NCBI GenBank assembly: GCA_019749835.1
Contig: JAIEPJ010000275.1
Coordinates: forward strand, 1 to 35,513
From: Phreatobacter sp.
Lineage (GTDB): Bacteria; Pseudomonadota; Alphaproteobacteria; Rhizobiales; Phreatobacteraceae
Direction: 5' to 3'
DNA length: 35,513 nucleotides
The translations under genes and the position numbers were made by a program. Of this stretch, positions 23,521-30,748 are shown one piece after another. Each line of letters starts with the position of its first letter. Position 1 is the stretch's first letter. Under the pieces are notes generated by a model. It ran no database searches. It was not told the origin of the DNA and worked only from the letters and a program-made list of their open reading frames with translations.

Positions 23521-23854
23521 CCCCGTCTCTCCTTGCCGCCCACGCCTTGCTGCCGGCGCGGACACCCGCGAATCCCCGTTGCAGACTAGCGCCTCGCATG
23601 CCGCCGGGCCATGCATCGCGCAAGGGTGGCGGCCTGGCAGCAAACCACAAAACCGTTGAAAATAAACCAGCAAACCTATGATAGAGAACGCATATTGGCC
23701 CGTAAACAGGCTCCGCCCGAAACTGTCCACAAAGGGCTGGGACGACATGGGCAGGCCAGCGACGGCGCGCCGCTCCGGAGCCATCACCAGTGCAACAGCA
23801 CCGCGATCGTCCCGGCTCCCGGCGGGGGAAGGCTCATCGCCTCCGACCGGACGC
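23521..23854. other. Non-coding gap between the OmpA gene and the first porin
   Basis: About 330 bases without a supported gene. It contains the ribosome site and candidate promoter of the OmpA-family gene and a relatively AT-rich centre (23650-23700). The rest shows no clear signal. The upstream extension of the OmpA reading frame through it contains no family sequence. Confidence 0.6.
23678..23706 (-). promoter_or_regulatory. Candidate promoter of the OmpA/BON gene
   Basis: On the minus strand TTTACG (-35, 23701-23706) and TATCAT (-10, 23678-23683) are separated by exactly 17 bases; they match 4/6 and 5/6 of the sigma-70 consensus. The leader would be about 150 bases to ATG 23520. Confidence 0.45.
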
Positions 23855-23890
23855 AAAAAAGAACCCCGGCGGTTTCCCGCCGGGGTCTTT
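23855..23890 (-). terminator. Terminator of the first porin
   Basis: Perfect 9-bp stem CCCCGGCGG (23864-23872) and CCGCCGGGG (23877-23885). On the minus strand the loop is GAAA, a GNRA tetraloop, followed by TTCTTTTTT. The same hairpin ends the second porin at 27324-27355. Confidence 0.9.
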
Positions 23891-23974
23891 GAGACTGGAA
23901 CCGGTCTGGGACCGGACCCGATCAGAAGTTGCGCTGGACGCGGAACATGCCCGACCAGGCGTTGGCATTGCCGA
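23858..23974 (-). repeat. 3' inverted-repeat arm shared by the two porin genes
   Basis: 117 bases covering the last codons, stop and terminator of the first porin. They match 27239-27355 in opposite orientation with a single mismatch (opposite 27304). The match stops just after the terminator T-run, where the first copy has three extra T residues. Confidence 0.85.
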
Positions 23975-25268
23975 TGGTCGTGCCGTTGGCGACGCCACCG
24001 TTGAGGTTGTTGCGGGTCGTGAGGTTCGAGTAGACGACCTCAACACCGAGGTCGAGGTTACGAACCGGCGACCAGATGGTGTTCACGCCAACCTGCCAGA
24101 AACGGAAGTCGTTCAGGTTGTTGGCGAGAGCGGCAGCAGTGCCCGGGGCGTCGACGTTGACGTACTTACCCCAGATGGCGGAGCGGAGAGCCGGGGTCCA
24201 GAAGTGGCGGAAACCACCGTGGATGGACCAGGCCTTCGACTTCACGAGACCGGTGCCGGCAGCGTTCGACACGCCATCAGCGTAGGTGGAGGTCAGGAGA
24301 CCAACGCCAACCGTCTGACGGGTCTGAACCAGACCGTCCGAGTTATCGTTCGTGAAGGCATAGGCGAGAGCGCCGTCCGTGTAGGCCGCCTGCAACCAGA
24401 GCACGTCGCCGCGGGCGAGCATGTCGAGGTTCAGACGGACGCCACCGCCGACGGCCCAGCCGGTCGAGGAGCGGCCGATGCCACCGAGGGTCGAGCGAAC
24501 CTCGTGGAAGGCAGCCATGACCTGAGCGGAGCCCCAGCCCTGGTCGACGCGGAGGTTACCGACGACGTCCGGGATACCCTGGCCGTTGTAGACGACGCCG
24601 TTGGCGGCGGCCGGAGCAGTGAACGTACCGGCAGCAGCGCTGAAGGTCGTCAGCGCGCCGATGCGGCGGAACTGCGGATCCTCAACCGAAACCGTGGCCG
24701 AGAAGCCCGAACCGAACGACGCCGTGTAGGCGATGAGGTTCGACGAGTTGCGCGACGGGTCCATGGCGGCGCCCGACGAAGCAACGAACTGGAGGTCGCC
24801 CTGGTAGAAGTTGAAGAACGACGCCGAGTTACCGAACGTGAAGCCAGCGAACTGGATGAACGCGCGGGACATGTAGGCAGCCGAGGCCTGGCCAAGAGTG
24901 CCTGCGCCTGTTCCGGCGATGCCAGTGGGGAGGGTCTGATTGAGCGGGCCACGCTGGATCAAGAACTCACCGAAAGCGCGAAGCAGGCCATACTCGGTGT
25001 TCGAGCGGGCGTCGAAGTTCAGAAGCAGGCGGGTACGAGTGGAGTACGCGCCGGTCTGCGCTCCGAACGTCTGAGCAACATAGGCATCCATGCGGACGTA
25101 GCCGCCGATGCGAAGGCAGGTGTCGGTGCCCGGGATGAAGAAGAAGCCAGCGCCGTAGGTGTCGCAGATGCGCACGTACTCGGCGGGAGCTGCCTTGCCC
25201 GGGAGATCCGCTGCCTGAGCGCCGGTGAGGGCAACGAAGCCCGCCGCAGCGCCGAGAAGAAGGCTCTT
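23922..25268 (-). CDS. Omp2/Porin_2-type porin, intact body without a start codon in this orientation
   Basis: The frame encodes 448 residues from KSLLLGAAAGFVALTGAQAA (signal peptide from its fifth codon on) to MFRVQRNF, the C-terminal Phe typical of outer-membrane barrels. It is homologous over its whole length to the porin at 25891-27291, and the first 469 bases match that gene with one mismatch. The first four codons, ribosome site and promoter are absent. Upstream of codon AAG 25268 the DNA is unrelated, and there is no in-frame ATG, GTG or TTG until GTG 25175, which would delete the signal peptide. An ATG at 25273 is out of frame by one base. It is either a decapitated pseudogene or the silent partner of an invertible start cassette. 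No premature stop is present. Confidence 0.85.
   Translation of the reverse strand, partial: KSLLLGAAAGFVALTGAQAADLPGKAAPAEYVRICDTYGAGFFFIPGTDTCLRIGGYVRMDAYVAQTFGAQTGAYSTRTRLLLNFDARSNTEYGLLRAFGEFLIQRGPLNQTLPTGIAGTGAGTLGQASAAYMSRAFIQFAGFTFGNSASFFNFYQGDLQFVASSGAAMDPSRNSSNLIAYTASFGSGFSATVSVEDPQFRRIGALTTFSAAAGTFTAPAAANGVVYNGQGIPDVVGNLRVDQGWGSAQVMAAFHEVRSTLGGIGRSSTGWAVGGGVRLNLDMLARGDVLWLQAAYTDGALAYAFTNDNSDGLVQTRQTVGVGLLTSTYADGVSNAAGTGLVKSKAWSIHGGFRHFWTPALRSAIWGKYVNVDAPGTAAALANNLNDFRFWQVGVNTIWSPVRNLDLGVEVVYSNLTTRNNLNGGVANGTTIGNANAWSGMFRVQRNF
24800..25268 (-). repeat. 5' inverted-repeat arm, first porin copy
   Basis: 469 bases that match 25903-26371 in opposite orientation with one difference (opposite 25962). 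Homology begins abruptly at AAGAGCCTT in the signal peptide and ends abruptly after CTTCTACCAGG. Confidence 0.95.
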
Positions 25269-25902
25269 CGCATCCCCGTGACCCTGGCCTCGCGAGGGGC
25301 GAATCCGGTCGGGCGGCCCTTTGCGCCGAGTCGCGTGGGTCCCTGGCGCCGGCCTCGCGCCGGGTTGGGCTTGGCGCGGCTTTGCAGCCGATTCGGGGCC
25401 CTTTCCAGGGAAACCGGGTCCCTCAGAGGCTGATTATGTGGCTTTCCGCCTGAACCATGTCTCCCGGGGCAGGAACCGCTGCGCCATCGCCCGGCGGGCC
25501 CGGCCGGGCCCCTGCGGCCCGCGGCGCGGGACGGGACAATTAACGCCCTCACGCCGCCGTGACTGGTGAAAGTCCGTTTTTTTTCATAAACTTGTCCTCA
25601 ATTTCCGCGAGCACGATGTGGTTAAGAGGCGCGTGTCCTTCCTGCAACAGTTCCTCCCAAAGCCGGCCCGGGACCGGTCTGGAGCCGTTCTTTCCATTGA
25701 TCAGCGCGGGGGCATCGGTAATGGTGACCTTGCGACGAAGGGGGGCACCCCGGTCGCACCGCCCTTCCTGGGGTCGAACGGCAGATTGCCACGACAGCAG
25801 TAAAGGCGGCCACACGGGGAATATCGGAACCAAAGCCGTCAAAGGCGCGGAACCAGGCTCCCTCAGGAGAAACATTTGGAGGTCTACACAATGAAGACGG
25901 TT
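25269..25902. other. 634-bp spacer between the inverted porin arms (possible invertible segment)
   Basis: Bounded exactly by the two 469-bp arms. The right end carries the only porin start: GGAGG, ATG 25891 and four codons. The left end carries GC-rich sequence with no usable start. Inside are a run of eight T at 25577-25584, a hairpin TGCGAC/GTCGCA at 25731-25758, and a minus-strand open stretch ending at 25549 that looks like the C-terminus of an unidentified protein. The promoter of the second porin should lie here, but I could not fix its -35 and -10 boxes. No complete gene is supported. Confidence 0.6.
25549..25740 (-). pseudogene. Possible C-terminal remnant of an unidentified gene
   Basis: About 63 in-frame codons end in TGA at 25549-25551. 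The peptide looks protein-like: VTITDAPALINGKNG, then GRLWEELLQEGHAPLNH and IVLAEIEDKFMKKNG. Unlike the shadow frames around it, it is not rich in Arg, Ala or Pro, and its codons are less GC-biased. No in-frame start precedes it; upstream it runs into the antisense of the second porin. I do not recognise the family. It could be a broken gene left by the rearrangement, or chance. Confidence 0.3.
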
Positions 25903-27291
25903 AAGAGCCTTCTTCTCGGCGCTGCGGCGGGCTTCGTTGCCCTCACCGGCGCTCAGGCAGCTGATCTCCCGGGCAAGGCAGCTCCCGCCGAGTACGTGCG
26001 CATCTGCGACACCTACGGCGCTGGCTTCTTCTTCATCCCGGGCACCGACACCTGCCTTCGCATCGGCGGCTACGTCCGCATGGATGCCTATGTTGCTCAG
26101 ACGTTCGGAGCGCAGACCGGCGCGTACTCCACTCGTACCCGCCTGCTTCTGAACTTCGACGCCCGCTCGAACACCGAGTATGGCCTGCTTCGCGCTTTCG
26201 GTGAGTTCTTGATCCAGCGTGGCCCGCTCAATCAGACCCTCCCCACTGGCATCGCCGGAACAGGCGCAGGCACTCTTGGCCAGGCCTCGGCTGCCTACAT
26301 GTCCCGCGCGTTCATCCAGTTCGCTGGCTTCACGTTCGGTAACTCGGCGTCGTTCTTCAACTTCTACCAGGCAGACGTCCAGATGGTCGCGGGCGGTGGT
26401 GCTGCTCTCGACCCGTCCAGAACCTCTTCGAACCTCATCGCCTACACAGCGTCGTTCGGTTCGGGCTTCTCGGCCACGGTTTCGATCGAGGATCCGCAGT
26501 TCCGCCGCATCGGCGCTCTTGGTAACTTCATTGGCGGCACTGGCACGCTCTTGGCTGCAAGCCCGGTCGATGGCGTGATCTACAATGGCCAGAGCCTTCC
26601 CGACGTCGTCGCCAATCTCCGCGTCGACCAGGGCTGGGGTTCCGCGCAGGTCATGGCCGCATTCCATGAGGTTCGTGGAAACGTGGCAGTTGCAGTTGCT
26701 CCTGCAGTCGCTCCCCGTATCGGCGTCTCGTCTACCGGTTGGGCTGTTGGCGGTGGCGTCCGTCTGAACCTCGACATGATCGCTCGCGGCGACGTGCTAT
26801 GGTTGCAGGCGGTCTACACGGACGGCGCTCTGGGCTATGCATTCACGAACGATAACTCGGATGGTCTTCAGCAGACCCGCCAGAACGTGCAGGTTGGTCT
26901 GCTCAATGCATTTTATGCCGACGGTGTACAGACCGCTACCGGAGCAATCGTGAAGTCGAAGGCTTGGTCCATCCATGGTGGTTTCCGTCACTTCTGGACC
27001 CCGGCCCTTCGCTCCGCCATCTGGGGCAAGTATGTGAACATCGACGCGCCGTCTATCGCGGGCCGCTCGGTGTCTGACATCCGCTACTGGGCTGTTGGCG
27101 TCAACACGTTCTGGTCGCCGGTTCGCAATCTCGACCTTGGCGTCGAGATCGTTTACCAGGACCTCCGTTCGCGGGACAATGGCAGCGGTGCAACGGTTGG
27201 TTCCCCGTCGTTTTCGGCGGCTACTGCCCGTGGCAATCTCGGCAATGCCAACGCCTGGTCGGGCATGTTCCGCGTCCAGCGCAACTTCTGA
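25891..27291 (+). CDS. Omp2/Porin_2-type outer-membrane porin
   Basis: 466 residues. The signal peptide MKTVKSLLLGAAAGFVALTG ends at AQA-A, and the mature protein begins DLPGKAAPAEYVRICD, as in alphaproteobacterial Porin_2 proteins (Brucella Omp2a/b relatives). Conserved segments include YGAGFFFIPGTDTCLRIGGY near the N-terminus, GFRHFWTPALRSAIWGKY, and the C-terminal Phe needed for barrel assembly. It should form a trimeric 16-strand general diffusion channel. GGAGG 8 bases before ATG 25891 is a strong ribosome site. Codons lean to T-ending forms unlike nearby genes, as in highly expressed porins. It is head to head with its homologue at 23922-25268, from which it differs mainly in putative loop regions. 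Confidence 0.95.
   Translation: MKTVKSLLLGAAAGFVALTGAQAADLPGKAAPAEYVRICDTYGAGFFFIPGTDTCLRIGGYVRMDAYVAQTFGAQTGAYSTRTRLLLNFDARSNTEYGLLRAFGEFLIQRGPLNQTLPTGIAGTGAGTLGQASAAYMSRAFIQFAGFTFGNSASFFNFYQADVQMVAGGGAALDPSRTSSNLIAYTASFGSGFSATVSIEDPQFRRIGALGNFIGGTGTLLAASPVDGVIYNGQSLPDVVANLRVDQGWGSAQVMAAFHEVRGNVAVAVAPAVAPRIGVSSTGWAVGGGVRLNLDMIARGDVLWLQAVYTDGALGYAFTNDNSDGLQQTRQNVQVGLLNAFYADGVQTATGAIVKSKAWSIHGGFRHFWTPALRSAIWGKYVNIDAPSIAGRSVSDIRYWAVGVNTFWSPVRNLDLGVEIVYQDLRSRDNGSGATVGSPSFSAATARGNLGNANAWSGMFRVQRNF
25903..26371 (+). repeat. 5' inverted-repeat arm, second porin copy
   Basis: 469 bases from codon 5 of the porin, identical but for one base to the reverse complement of 24800-25268. Beyond 26371 the two genes differ at many synonymous and non-synonymous positions. 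Confidence 0.95.
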
Positions 27292-27355
27292 TCGGGTCCG
27301 GTCTCAGACCGGTTCCAGTCTCAAAGACCCCGGCGGGAAACCGCCGGGGTTCTTT
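27239..27355 (+). repeat. 3' inverted-repeat arm, second porin copy
   Basis: 117 bases from the final codons through the terminator, matching 23858-23974 inverted with one mismatch at 27304. Confidence 0.85.
27324..27355 (+). terminator. Terminator of the second porin
   Basis: CCCCGGCGG (27328-27336), GAAA tetraloop, CCGCCGGGG (27341-27349), then TTCTTT. It lies 36 bases after the stop and is the same hairpin as at 23864-23885. Confidence 0.9.
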
Positions 27356-27398
27356 GCGTCTGGAGCATTGTGAAATCATGCGTCGCCCCCTCCCCGCC

Positions 27399-28730
27399 TC
27401 AGGTCGGCGGGCGGATTTTCTCCAGGGACTCGGCCATCATGGCGATGGACACCGACCCGTAGCGGCGCGACGTCGTCGCCTGCGCATGGCCGACAATGGC
27501 ATCGGTGATCTTCTCCGGCACACCTTCGGCGAAGGCCTGCTCCTTGAACCAGTGACGCCACGCATGGTTCGGATCGACTTTCGCGTCCCGGCCGATGCCC
27601 AGATCCAGCGAATGGAGCCAGTCGCTCAGCCGTCGGAGTGTGCTGCGGGCCGGATGATAGACCGATGGCCCGATTTCCACGGTGATCACCGGCTGCAATC
27701 CGTTCACCGCGAGGGGCTTTTCGATGAAAAGCCGCTCCCTTTCGGTCTTCTCGACGAAGGCCAGGAAGCCCCGCGCCAGGATCGCCGAGTGAATCGGCAC
27801 CAGCCGCTCCGAAGCGGCGGTCTTGATCGGTCCCGCCTGGCGGCTAATCCTGACACACCAGATGCCCTCGACCTGGACGACGTCCTGCTTGCGCAGATTG
27901 GCGATGGCCGCCACCCGGCTGCCGGTCAGTGCCGTCAGCCAGGGGATCCAGCGGCGCGCGGCGAGCGTCTGCCGGTCGGCCGCGGCCAGAATGCCCCGCG
28001 CCTGAACGGGCGAAAACGCCTTCATCGATTGGGTCGCGGCCAGCCTTTCCGGCTTGAAGCGGATTCCGCTCGTCGGATTGCCGGTCACGAACTCGTTTTC
28101 CACGGCGAACTGAAACAGCGCGCGGAGCGCAGCAAAGTCGGAATGGCGCGCCGTTCGCAGCCGCCGCCCCGTCGCGATGAGATGATCGCGATAGGCCCGG
28201 ATGTCGTGGGGAGTGACGTCCTGCGGCCGGTCATGCCCCAGAAAAACGACGAACCGCTGGACGAGAACGCGCCAGTAGGGCGGCGTGGTCGGCGCTCCGC
28301 CCGACTGCACATGCTGGAGTGCCCAGGCCTCGAACAACTCCGCGAAGGTCCGTTTCTGCTGGTCGGCGCATCCGGCATCACCGCGCGCCTCGGCAACGAT
28401 GCCGGGGCCCGGCATCGCGTTCAGATTCGCATGCGGCGCCTGACGGCTATCGCGCACCGCGATACCTACGCCTTGAGCGCTTCGCTCTAGTTCCAGAAGA
28501 CGAACAACCACCTGGTTGGCGACAACCGACACCGCACTGCGGGCATCGTCGAAGGATCTGCTCGCAAGCGGCAAGGCCACCTCGTCATCGACATCAACAC
28601 AGAACCGGAAACAGTCATAGACGACGTCGACCGCAAGGTTCCGATACTTCCTGACAACCGTCGTCGGCAGCGGGATCGCGAAGAAAACGCGTCCCTCCCG
28701 ATCGATGCGGATATCAAGACCTTGCTGCAT
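27399..28730 (-). CDS. Tyrosine recombinase / phage-type integrase
   Basis: 443 residues. An N-terminal region of about 125 residues of no recognised type is followed by a SAM-like core-binding domain (about 126-215, FAELFEAWALQHVQ to ALFQFAVENEF) and the catalytic domain. All catalytic residues are present: Arg272 (ALTGSRVAAI), Lys303 (IKTAASERLVPIH), His389 and Arg392 (NHAWRHWF), His415 (IVGHAQATTSRRYG) and Tyr424. It should cut and rejoin DNA through a 3'-phosphotyrosine. ATG 28730 has AGGA 8 bases upstream; a GTG at 28751 is in frame but without a site. It is convergent with the second porin. No excisionase, phage gene, tRNA target or second integrase is nearby, so its partner DNA is not obvious. 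The N-terminal part is less GC-rich than its surroundings, suggesting transfer. Confidence 0.9.
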   Translation of the reverse strand: MQQGLDIRIDREGRVFFAIPLPTTVVRKYRNLAVDVVYDCFRFCVDVDDEVALPLASRSFDDARSAVSVVANQVVVRLLELERSAQGVGIAVRDSRQAPHANLNAMPGPGIVAEARGDAGCADQQKRTFAELFEAWALQHVQSGGAPTTPPYWRVLVQRFVVFLGHDRPQDVTPHDIRAYRDHLIATGRRLRTARHSDFAALRALFQFAVENEFVTGNPTSGIRFKPERLAATQSMKAFSPVQARGILAAADRQTLAARRWIPWLTALTGSRVAAIANLRKQDVVQVEGIWCVRISRQAGPIKTAASERLVPIHSAILARGFLAFVEKTERERLFIEKPLAVNGLQPVITVEIGPSVYHPARSTLRRLSDWLHSLDLGIGRDAKVDPNHAWRHWFKEQAFAEGVPEKITDAIVGHAQATTSRRYGSVSIAMMAESLEKIRPPT

Positions 28731-29186
28731 TGATATTTTTCCTACCAACACATGAACTCGAAAGATTAGGATCGCAACATCGACGCATTTTCAAGGCGCT
28801 CCGTGAAACAGGAGAATCACCGGGAGCGCAATGAGCTGCAGCAATGCCCGCTATCGATGTTTTTAATTTACTTTTCGGAGCGATTATAGGTCTTTATGAC
28901 CGTTTTGCAACGAATTTCGAATGCTAATCACATCATTTACGGCACCAATGATGCGCGATTACTGGCATTTTTTCTTAATTCACAATAGAATGAACGTCTT
29001 TGCGGGCATTTTGGCGCGCTGTGCAGCGCATGCGGGCATTTTCATGAATTTTGCGCGCATGAGGCAAACAAATGATGGAAGAGCCGCGATGAAGACGATC
29101 AATGCAGGATCCTTAAGCAACCATTGGGATCATTTTGTACGCGATGCTACCCATTATCGGCCAGGAACATCGTCCTATTTTGCCCT
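28731..29186. other. AT-rich non-coding region upstream of the integrase
   Basis: 456 bases with much lower GC than the rest of the window. It lies between the integrase start and the Lrp-type gene stop, both on the minus strand. It contains three copies of GGCATTTT and a 14-base palindrome (listed separately). Open frames here are short and overlap the regulator gene; none has a convincing start or family. The composition suggests imported DNA or an integrase attachment/control region. Confidence 0.6.
28964..29042. repeat. Direct repeats TGCGGGCATTTT flanking a palindrome
   Basis: TGCGGGCATTTT occurs at 29001-29012 and 29031-29042, a 30-base period, with the core GGCATTTT again at 28964-28971. 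The palindrome GCGCTG-TG-CAGCGC sits exactly between the two full copies at 29016-29029. The layout resembles protein-binding arrays such as recombinase arm sites or an operator. Confidence 0.6.
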
Positions 29187-29654
29187 TCACGCCTTGGCCG
29201 CGACCGGCACCTCGTAGGCCGTGGTCGACTTGATTCGCTCCATCGCGAAGCGCGAGGTGACGTTCTTCAGCGGGATGGTATCGATCAGCCGCTTGTAGAA
29301 GGCGTCATAGGCGGCCATGTCGGTCACGACCACGCGCAGCATGTAGTCGACATCGCCGGCCATCCGGTAGAATTCCATCACCTCCGACATGCCCGAAACC
29401 GTCTCGGCGAAGCGCGCGAGCCATTCCCGGGAATGATCGGAGGTCTCGATGGACACGAAGACCGTCAGGCCGAGCCCGAGCTTTTCCGGAGAGACCAGCG
29501 CGACGCGCTTGATGATATATCCCGCCGCCTCGAGCTTCTGGATACGTTTCCAGCAAGGGGTCTGGGACAGGTTGATGCGGGAGGCGAGCTCGGCGATCGA
29601 GATCGCCGCATCGTCCTGCAGGAAGGTGAGGATCTTCCGGTCGATGGCATCCAT
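29187..29654 (-). CDS. Lrp/AsnC-family transcriptional regulator
   Basis: 155 residues, the standard Lrp/AsnC size. The N-terminal helix-turn-helix (1-60) is MDAIDRKILTFLQDDAAISI, then ELASRINLSQTPCWKRIQKL; the Lrp hallmark SxTPCWKRIxKLExAGxI is intact. The RAM effector/oligomerisation domain (about 65-150) contains VMEFYRMAGDVDYMLRVVV. These proteins form octamers that bind amino acids and bend DNA. It is divergent from the leader ORF and short-chain dehydrogenase, the usual layout when the regulator controls the neighbour. ATG 29654 starts the conserved MDxIDRKIL. Confidence 0.93.
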   Translation of the reverse strand: MDAIDRKILTFLQDDAAISIAELASRINLSQTPCWKRIQKLEAAGYIIKRVALVSPEKLGLGLTVFVSIETSDHSREWLARFAETVSGMSEVMEFYRMAGDVDYMLRVVVTDMAAYDAFYKRLIDTIPLKNVTSRFAMERIKSTTAYEVPVAAKA

Positions 29655-29894
29655 GGTCTTGCCCCTGGTGACGCCGGGCTCGGTGCGGCCCGCAAAAGAA
29701 AATTGTCGCTTCTTACCGCAGTCTTTCGGCTCCCTCACGCAATATTTTTTCTCCTGCCGCAACGATAGTCGCGGTCTCCACCACAGCGTGACGCGACGCT
29801 GCACGTCAGGTCCTGCAGCGATGGGCCCCTTGCATCGGCGCGAGCCTGCCAGCACTTTGGCGCCAGCGGCCATCCGCCCAAGACCGCAGAGGAA
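29655..29894. promoter_or_regulatory. Divergent regulatory region between the Lrp gene and the dehydrogenase operon
   Basis: About 240 bases with a notably AT-rich patch (29693-29752, including AAAGAAAATTG and CAATATTTTTTC) in GC-rich surroundings. Lrp proteins favour AT-rich, bendable DNA, so this is the likely control region for both directions. No exact operator or promoter boxes could be defined. Confidence 0.4.
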
Positions 29895-29900
29895 ATGACC

Positions 29901-29978
29901 ATGTCCACCGTTACGGCCGGCCCGCCCCGGCGCCTCCCCTTCATCGACGTTCCCGCCGCGGGGAGGCTCGCGCGATGA
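29901..29978 (+). CDS. Short leader ORF coupled to the dehydrogenase
   Basis: 25 codons, MSTVTAGPPRRLPFIDVPAA then GRLAR, ending in TGA that overlaps the dehydrogenase start as ATGA (29975-29978). AGAGGA at 29888-29893 lies 7 bases before ATG 29901, a better ribosome site than the dehydrogenase has by itself. An in-frame ATG at 29895 is too close to it. The peptide matches nothing I know. It may serve to load ribosomes onto the dehydrogenase, or be the head of a gene whose body was deleted. Confidence 0.5.
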   Translation: MSTVTAGPPRRLPFIDVPAAGRLAR

Positions 29979-30748
29979 GCCAGCCCTCGACATCCCTGTC
30001 CCTCGCCGGGCTCAATGCCCTCGTCATCGGCGGCTCCAGCGGCATCGGCGAGGCCATCGCCCATGGCTATGCCGAGGCCGGAGCCCGCGTCGCCATCGCC
30101 GCTCGCAGCCCGGACAAGCTGCAGGAGGCCGCCGCGCGCCTCGCCGCCGCCTATCCCGGGTCGAAGGGCTATGTCGCTGACGTCACCGATGCGGGCCAGC
30201 TGGAGGAACTCGCCGCCACGGTGGCGCGCGACTTCGGGCCGGTGGACATCCTCGTACCGTGCCAGGGCACAACGATCATCAAGCCGACGCTGGATTTCAC
30301 CCCGGCGGAGATCGACCTGATTTTCCGCACCAACCAGACGAGCGTGTTCTTTTCCTGCACCACCTTCGGCCGGGCCATGGTCGCGCGCGGCAGCGGCGCC
30401 ATCATCAACATCGCCTCGCTCTCGGCCCATCGCGGCTGGCCCAAGGCCTGCCCCTATGCCATGACCAAACATGCCGTCGTCGGCCTGACGCAGACCCTGG
30501 CGTCGGAGTGGGCACCGCAGGGCGTCAGGGTCAACGCCATCTCGCCGGGCTTCTTCATGACCGAACTGAACGCCGCGAAGATGCCGGCGGACCGCAAGGA
30601 GAACGCCTTGCGCCGCACCCCGATGGGCCGCTGGGGCCAGACACGGGAACTGGTGGGCGCCGCGGTCTATCTCGCGTCACCGGCCGCCAGCTTCGTCACC
30701 GGAACCGTCATCGCGGTCGACGGCGGCTATCTCGCTTCCGGAATCTAA
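29975..30748 (+). CDS. Short-chain dehydrogenase/reductase
   Basis: 257 residues of a classical SDR. The cofactor loop is GGSSGIG (19-25), with Arg44 after the second strand, in AARS, favouring NADP(H). The catalytic set is Asn120, Ser148 (NIASLSAHRG), Tyr161 and Lys165 (YAMTK). The C-terminal SPGFFMTELN and ITGT-like VTGTVIAVDGGY are typical of the FabG/gluconate-dehydrogenase-like group. The substrate is unknown. It starts within the stop of the upstream leader ORF and is divergent from the Lrp-type regulator, its likely controller. Confidence 0.92.
   Translation: MSQPSTSLSLAGLNALVIGGSSGIGEAIAHGYAEAGARVAIAARSPDKLQEAAARLAAAYPGSKGYVADVTDAGQLEELAATVARDFGPVDILVPCQGTTIIKPTLDFTPAEIDLIFRTNQTSVFFSCTTFGRAMVARGSGAIINIASLSAHRGWPKACPYAMTKHAVVGLTQTLASEWAPQGVRVNAISPGFFMTELNAAKMPADRKENALRRTPMGRWGQTRELVGAAVYLASPAASFVTGTVIAVDGGYLASGI

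Follow-up and report, generated by a model that had tools for sequence, protein, structure and literature searches.

The DNA analysed here (hereafter, the window) is a stretch of 35,513 nucleotides (nt) from Phreatobacter sp., which is the complete contig C310 of a 4.43-Mb genome in 326 contigs, and it carries a pair of porin genes of which only one has a start. The two genes are divergent, facing away from each other across a 634-bp spacer. Porin B (25891..27291, plus strand) encodes 466 amino acids from an ATG at 25891, and porin body A (23922..25268, minus strand) is open for 448 codons, from codon 5 to the stop, without a start codon. We designated porin B as headed, or ON, and body A as headless, or OFF in this assembly. 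Both open reading frames (ORFs) matched the Porin_2 profile PF02530 with E-values of 4.5e-57 and 6.4e-56, and 3.2e-57 was obtained in another profile search.

From codon 5 onward, arm A (24800..25268, minus strand) and arm B (25903..26371, plus strand) are inverted counterparts of 469 bp with a sole mismatch at position 60. The identity ends abruptly, with mismatches at 470, 471, 475, 481, 483, 486 and 489, and a repeat search scored the arm pair as 488 nt at 99%. The gene ends are also alike over 117 bp with one mismatch, between the 3' end and terminator-like site of porin A (23858..23974, minus strand) and the 3' end of porin B (27239..27355, plus strand), with the minus-strand terminator-like site included. 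This repeat anatomy is beyond chance. An earlier sequence-only reading of the window had described 469-bp arms with one mismatch around a 634-bp spacer, which proved exact to the base, and had placed the sole start on the side of the plus-strand gene. In agreement with the latter, no ATG, GTG or TTG was found when the 55 codons of open frame upstream of the minus-strand gene were scanned, and the ATG, the ribosome site and the first four codons exist on the plus-strand side only.

These elements, together with a conserved upstream region that we presume to hold the promoter and leader, form the head (25617..25902, plus strand), which was delimited by blastn conservation among headed porin copies. 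The proposed invertible segment with the only start (25269..25902, 634 bp) lies between two copies of the 16-mer GAGCCTTCTTCTCGGC, one at the headless junction (25251..25266, minus strand) and one at the headed junction (25905..25920, plus strand), which are the proposed crossover sites; its counterpart is reversed relative to the flanks in three related genomes (G001, G002 and G008). A scan of 23800-27450 with the sigma-70 consensus gave no promoter-like site, and the head is called a promoter region because of its conservation only. An Rfam scan gave no family above the gathering score and one chance match. The block around GACGAAGGGGGGCACCCCGGTCGCACCGCC (25700-25800, in the head) is nearly invariant in the 12 headed copies described below, and may be a leader RNA element, although it has no Rfam match.

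Conservation of headed and headless porins in Phreatobacter

The locus was compared among 12 Phreatobacter genomes, including that of the window (G000). The 16-mer GAGCCTTCTTCTCGGC was present in all of them, in one or two copies each and in four copies in G009, the contig of which overlaps itself. Porin genes account for 23 of the 24 places, and the second copy of G004 (contig C11), which is not porin-related, was rejected. Exactly one of the porins bearing GAGCCTTCTTCTCGGC was headed in every genome (12/12, the G009 overlap being counted once). The headed copies begin with ATGAAGACGGT, and the start sits just before GAGCCTTCTTCTCGGC. A headless copy, starting at the same 16-mer, was found besides the headed one in nine genomes, and the single porin with GAGCCTTCTTCTCGGC in G004, G005 and G010 was headed. 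G009 has an additional, separate porin with its own ATG and without the 16-mer.

In all 10 headless rows of the comparison (nine genomes), the shared core begins at the first G of GAGCCTTCTTCTCGGC. Three rows have AA as the two preceding bases, like the headed copies, and the other seven have AC, CA, CC or GC. About 275 bp upstream are conserved among the 12 headed copies, with a blastn match in 66 of 66 pairs, and the nine headless upstream regions gave no blastn match to the headed ones at E 1e-3.

The inter-site segment varies in length, from 578-606 bp (G001, G002 and G008) and 634 bp (the window) to 3.9 kb (G007), 5.2 kb (G009) and 5.6 kb (G003). The long segment of G003 holds an Lrp/AsnC gene, and those of G007 and G009 (loci L119 and L120) hold such a gene together with an NMT1-type ATP-binding cassette (ABC) transporter, both of which would flip with the head. 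The window, G001, G003 and G006 are fragmented assemblies, and contigs of the latter three break in the arms, as an assembly or binning artefact of the inverted repeat might produce. However, the same anatomy occurs in the single-contig genomes G007, G008 and G009, and we regard such an artefact as scarcely credible.

Orientation of the segment among relatives and within the G009 assembly

With the shared flanking genes as reference, the head is directed at body B in the window and at body A in G002, G008 and G001, the last being judged from the right flank only. It also points to body A, across longer segments, in G007 and at the contig start of G009. The headless body A of the window shares 93% identity with its headed, syntenic counterpart in G002, where the spacer is reversed with respect to the flanks, and 90% with the single headed porin of G004. 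Likewise, the headless porin A of G011 is 92% identical to the headed porin of G005. The sequence-only reading had inferred a promoter flip and had suggested looking for the spacer in both orientations in close genomes. Both were found, in G002, G008 and G001 against the window, and the inference is supported by these opposite orientations among relatives and by those within the G009 contig.

Three genomes showed other layouts. In G006 (L124, L125) and G010 (L126), the head is directed away from the left flank. In G006 a headless arm faces the head from the right flank, and the porin bodies are missing from the assembly; this layout suggests convergent bodies that are flipped under a fixed promoter. 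In G011, the headless porin A (on a 535-kb contig) lies apart from the headed porin B and the recombinase described below (on a contig of 93 kb; L127, L128), and the pair may have been separated by a big rearrangement.

The assembly of G009 is a single, unclosed contig of 7.35 Mb, of which the last 29 kb repeat the first 29 kb. Over this overlap, the 18-kb left flank aligned with 17,975 matches, 12 mismatches and 90 indel bases, as is typical of a contig end that has not been polished, and the 2.57-kb right flank had 6 indel bases and was free of mismatches. The 5.2-kb inter-site segment aligned only in the inverted direction, with 5,113 of 5,201 positions and 16 mismatches, as compared with 2,336 in the same direction. 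The contig was perhaps not circularised because the segment is inverted between its ends. To separate body A from body B in G009, 192 ungapped diagnostic positions were used, including those up to 200 bp past the genes. The first, at base 1 of the arms, is reciprocally exchanged, the next lies 176 bp further on, and body A of the tail has the A base at the remaining 191 of the 192. Because the first base is swapped and only A bases occur from 176 bp on, the G009 crossover is placed within the first 175 bp.

Constraint on the headless bodies and predicted effect of a flip

The headless bodies are open to the stop in all seven fully assembled cases (G000, G001, G002, G007, G008, the start of G009, and G011). 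The porin copies in the G009 tail were excluded from this comparison and from that of the ratio of nonsynonymous to synonymous substitution rates (dN/dS). The dN/dS values were 0.10-0.29 over the five compared pairs containing a headless body. Three of these, a headless body against its presumed counterpart in another species, gave 0.26-0.29; the window's own two bodies gave 0.29, and the headless bodies of G001 and G008 gave 0.10. For five genomes, the codons of the signal peptide were compared between off and on copies. They did not differ in G000, G002 and G009, and four synonymous and no nonsynonymous codon differences were found in G007. The intact bodies and the kept signal peptide are not what is expected of a permanently silent copy.

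These data bear on the explanation that the locus does not switch, the headless copy being either a silent donor in gene conversion or a duplicate in decay. Within genomes, the arms and the 3' ends have been homogenised, which suggests that gene conversion occurs in addition to inversion. Compared with the on pair G002/G004 (0.14), dN/dS is about twice as high when the window's off copy is paired with its on orthologues (0.29 and 0.26), so that selection on this copy is possibly somewhat relaxed. On the other hand, the segment is found in opposite orientations among relatives and within G009, all seven fully assembled headless bodies are intact, with constraint over their full length in the compared pairs, and the G007 signal peptides differ only synonymously. 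We consider this explanation very improbable.

A structure model of the porin barrel was obtained with a mean predicted local distance difference test (pLDDT) score of 72, and its best PDB match was the DcaP channel (6eus). When the A/B differences past the arm were placed on the model, they affected 23 of the 156 residues in strands, against 67 of the 149 residues elsewhere (Fisher p = 9e-9). These differences thus lie mostly outside the predicted strands, and on this model a flip would alter mainly the porin loops; loops inside the arm stay unexchanged in the window.

The adjacent probable tyrosine recombinase

The ORF next to porin B encodes a probable tyrosine recombinase of 450 amino acids (27399..28751, minus strand), the proposed invertase. 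It is arranged tail to tail with porin B, the stop of which is 107 bp away. Matches to the XerA and XerD models had E-values of 4e-10 and 3e-9, under the cut-offs of these models, and a PDB profile search with the protein found XerA (5hxy, E 1e-5). The residues R279, K310, H396-x-x-R399, H422 and Y431, which we take by eye and from general knowledge of the family to be the catalytic ones, are invariant as a set across seven orthologues. The dN/dS values of 0.19 and 0.12 in two pairs indicate that the recombinase is under purifying selection.

Homologues at E<=1e-55 were found in 7 of 397 genomes of the order, and all seven are Phreatobacter (7 of the 12 genus genomes). In every one of the seven carriers, a copy is placed tail to tail with a porin gene, at a distance of 97-159 bp from the porin stop; G002 has an extra, weaker copy on another contig. 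No close homologue was found in the three single-porin genomes: G004 gave none, the best match of G005 (E 1.7e-24) lies on another contig, and that of G010 had an E-value of 4e-4. When on and off copies were aligned from the K codon, 23 nt matched fully in G008 and with one base off in G001, and the differences started right after. This confinement of the match to about 23 nt is as expected if the exchange stays at the site.

The sequence-only reading had attributed the flip to recombination between the arms. General homologous recombination between long arms could invert the segment, with the recombinase as a passenger from an integrated element. The length and near-identity of the arms (469 bp in the window, 175 bp without a difference in G009) speak for this, as do the G003 and G006 assemblies, which have two sites but no recombinase. 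These two assemblies also have no complete porin pair. Since their contigs end in the arms and the porin bodies are missing too, they neither support nor refute the link with the recombinase. A passenger is difficult to reconcile with an enzyme that is under purifying selection, adjoins a porin in all carriers and has no close homologue in the single-porin genomes, and recombination between arms is difficult to reconcile with an on-off identity of only about 23 nt in G008 and G001. The explanation as a whole therefore appears unlikely. The inversion of the earlier reading is supported, and its route seems less likely: the adjacent recombinase and the fixed 16-bp boundary, which that reading had overlooked, favour site-specific inversion over plain homologous recombination between the arms. 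Homologous recombination may act as an additional process, because the arms and 3' ends are homogenised within genomes.

An Lrp/AsnC-family regulator is encoded at 29187..29993 (minus strand), and in G003, G007 and G009 the homologous gene is part of the segment. In several genomes this gene is found near the head as a conserved feature. Lrp is an aid to DNA inversion in other systems, and, speculatively, the regulator is a possible accessory factor here.

A proposed two-state porin switch

We propose that the locus is a two-state surface-protein switch, in which the head inverts between porin bodies A and B and the recombinase is most probably the catalyst; we put the probability of this reading at roughly 0.8. 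It builds on the anatomy of the locus, its conservation in the genus, orthologues in opposite states, both orientations in one assembly, and intact, constrained headless bodies, all of which are established. One presumed promoter, leader, ribosome site, ATG and four codons would be carried on an invertible segment between the two bodies. A crossover between the inverted sites in the first codons, with GAGCCTTCTTCTCGGC as the core, would flip the segment, so that this one head would read in frame into either body A or body B, with the remaining body lacking a start. The flip would most probably be catalysed by the recombinase next to porin B, presumably acting at the 16-mer. Transcription would follow the head and only the headed porin would be expressed, and the surface of the pore would change upon the flip, which may serve adaptation to phages, predators or solutes.

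Besides the G003 and G006 assemblies and the dN/dS of the window's off copy, several observations weigh against this proposal. On the sequence-only reading, the minus-strand porin of related strains should not have a normal start and promoter. In agreement with this, no off porin examined matches the conserved upstream region of the headed porins, although some in-frame start codon occurs upstream in 8 of the 10 headless rows (the exceptions being the window and G006). The headless copy of G008 has a GTG at -3 with GGAGG nearby, the last 40 bases before it resemble, by eye, a degraded leader, and its signal peptide differs from that of the on copy by four synonymous and three nonsynonymous codons. 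The 16-mer GAGCCTTCTTCTCGGC is not palindromic, and it lies within coding sequence that is similar in other genera; since AAGAGCCTT is common in porins of other genera, the argument from the conservation of the 16-mer is weakened. The recombinase scored 25.5 bits against the phage-integrase family PF00589, the cut-off of which is 27.1, and its structure model was discarded as too poor (pLDDT 50). In body B of the G009 tail, the 191 diagnostic positions comprise 160 B bases, 28 scattered A bases and 3 others. The scattered A bases probably come from consensus mixing at a low-coverage end, and a second lineage is possible. The G009 tail is also error-rich, with frameshifts in both porins, which we take as sequencing errors.

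It also seems likely that a recombinase-driven porin switch exists genus-wide in these environmental Alphaproteobacteria, by which most of the variable loops would be swapped at a 16-bp site in the signal-peptide codons while the signal peptide, promoter and barrel are kept. In one sublineage, the segment would have taken in the NMT1-type ABC transporter and the Lrp regulator, and the orientation of the transporter would flip with the porin.

Such surface switches are usually discussed as immune evasion by parasites. A switch that is conserved through an environmental genus, and in a porin, suggests pressures of another kind, for example from phages, predators or changing solutes. Solute uptake is set by porins, which phages can also use as receptors, and one culture may be a mix of two permeability types. 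A cultured Phreatobacter isolate appears to carry the porin pair and the recombinase. We found no report of a porin inversion switch in Phreatobacter in the open-licence literature, a scope outside which most subscription papers fall. In the available portion of a 2018 survey, inversion signatures were given for none of the four alphaproteobacterial samples (PMC5903667).

Comparison with other genera and known systems

Inverted or opposite-strand porins were also sought at 91 loci of other genera, of which 19 span only about 1.5 kb on each side, so that neighbours could be missed there. Among the four loci listed, L033 and L100 (= G059) have opposite-strand porins; they were not counted because at each of them the matches of both genes reach residue 1. 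Locus L164 (G059:C72, 8208-13647) belongs to another family of the order and has two porins head to head, with 85% inverted identity over the whole genes and a start in each. Next to them is an integrase-like ORF in the tail-to-tail arrangement seen in the window. This locus is possibly an independent pairing of porin and recombinase.

In the sap system of Campylobacter fetus, one promoter is inverted between homologues with conserved 5' ends, and we know of no dedicated recombinase for it. The Omp1 of Dichelobacter nodosus, an outer-membrane protein, reportedly has a site-specific inversion model, going by a title. That system has more than two coding parts and belongs to a pathogen. The omp2a/omp2b genes of Brucella are a porin pair in inverted orientation, with gene conversion. 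The sap inversion occurs without RecA according to a title cited in PMC5634654; its products are S-layer proteins, unlike the porins here. In Lactobacillus acidophilus, inversion of the chromosomal slp segment interchanges the active and silent surface-protein genes slpA and slpB, as described in an excerpt of PMC6176008, and these too are S-layer genes, unlike the present pair.

Closer in design are three mycoplasmal systems. In the mba system of Ureaplasma, inversion at short sequences joins the 5' region of one gene to one or the other of two ORFs (PMC3047005). One 5' region and two alternative bodies are thus common to both systems, but the mba products are membrane-anchored repeat antigens and the head spans the signal peptide and anchor. 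The Vpma system of Mycoplasma agalactiae (Xer1) resembles the present locus in its one promoter, silent homologues and nearby tyrosine recombinase, but its recombination site is described as lying in the 5' untranslated region, and the silent Vpma genes would keep their starts. In the Vsa system of Mycoplasma pulmonis, inversion places a promoter, ribosome site and 5' coding part before a silent 3' gene (PMC2268961), and the gene for a tyrosine recombinase (HvsR) lies near the vsa locus (PMC2268961, PMC4534519). The logic of inverting a 5' head next to a tyrosine recombinase gene is therefore the same. However, Vsa has a 714-nt coding head and several silent genes in a wall-less pathogen, as compared with a four-codon head and two bodies here, and the present proteins are beta-barrel porins of an environmental alphaproteobacterium at an unrelated locus. 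The proposed Phreatobacter switch works like Vsa but, on the basis of its protein family and with no direct comparison to Vsa made, is not classed as a Vsa/HvsR member by descent, nor as a member of the mba, sap, slp or Omp1 systems; its proteins are Porin_2 barrels.

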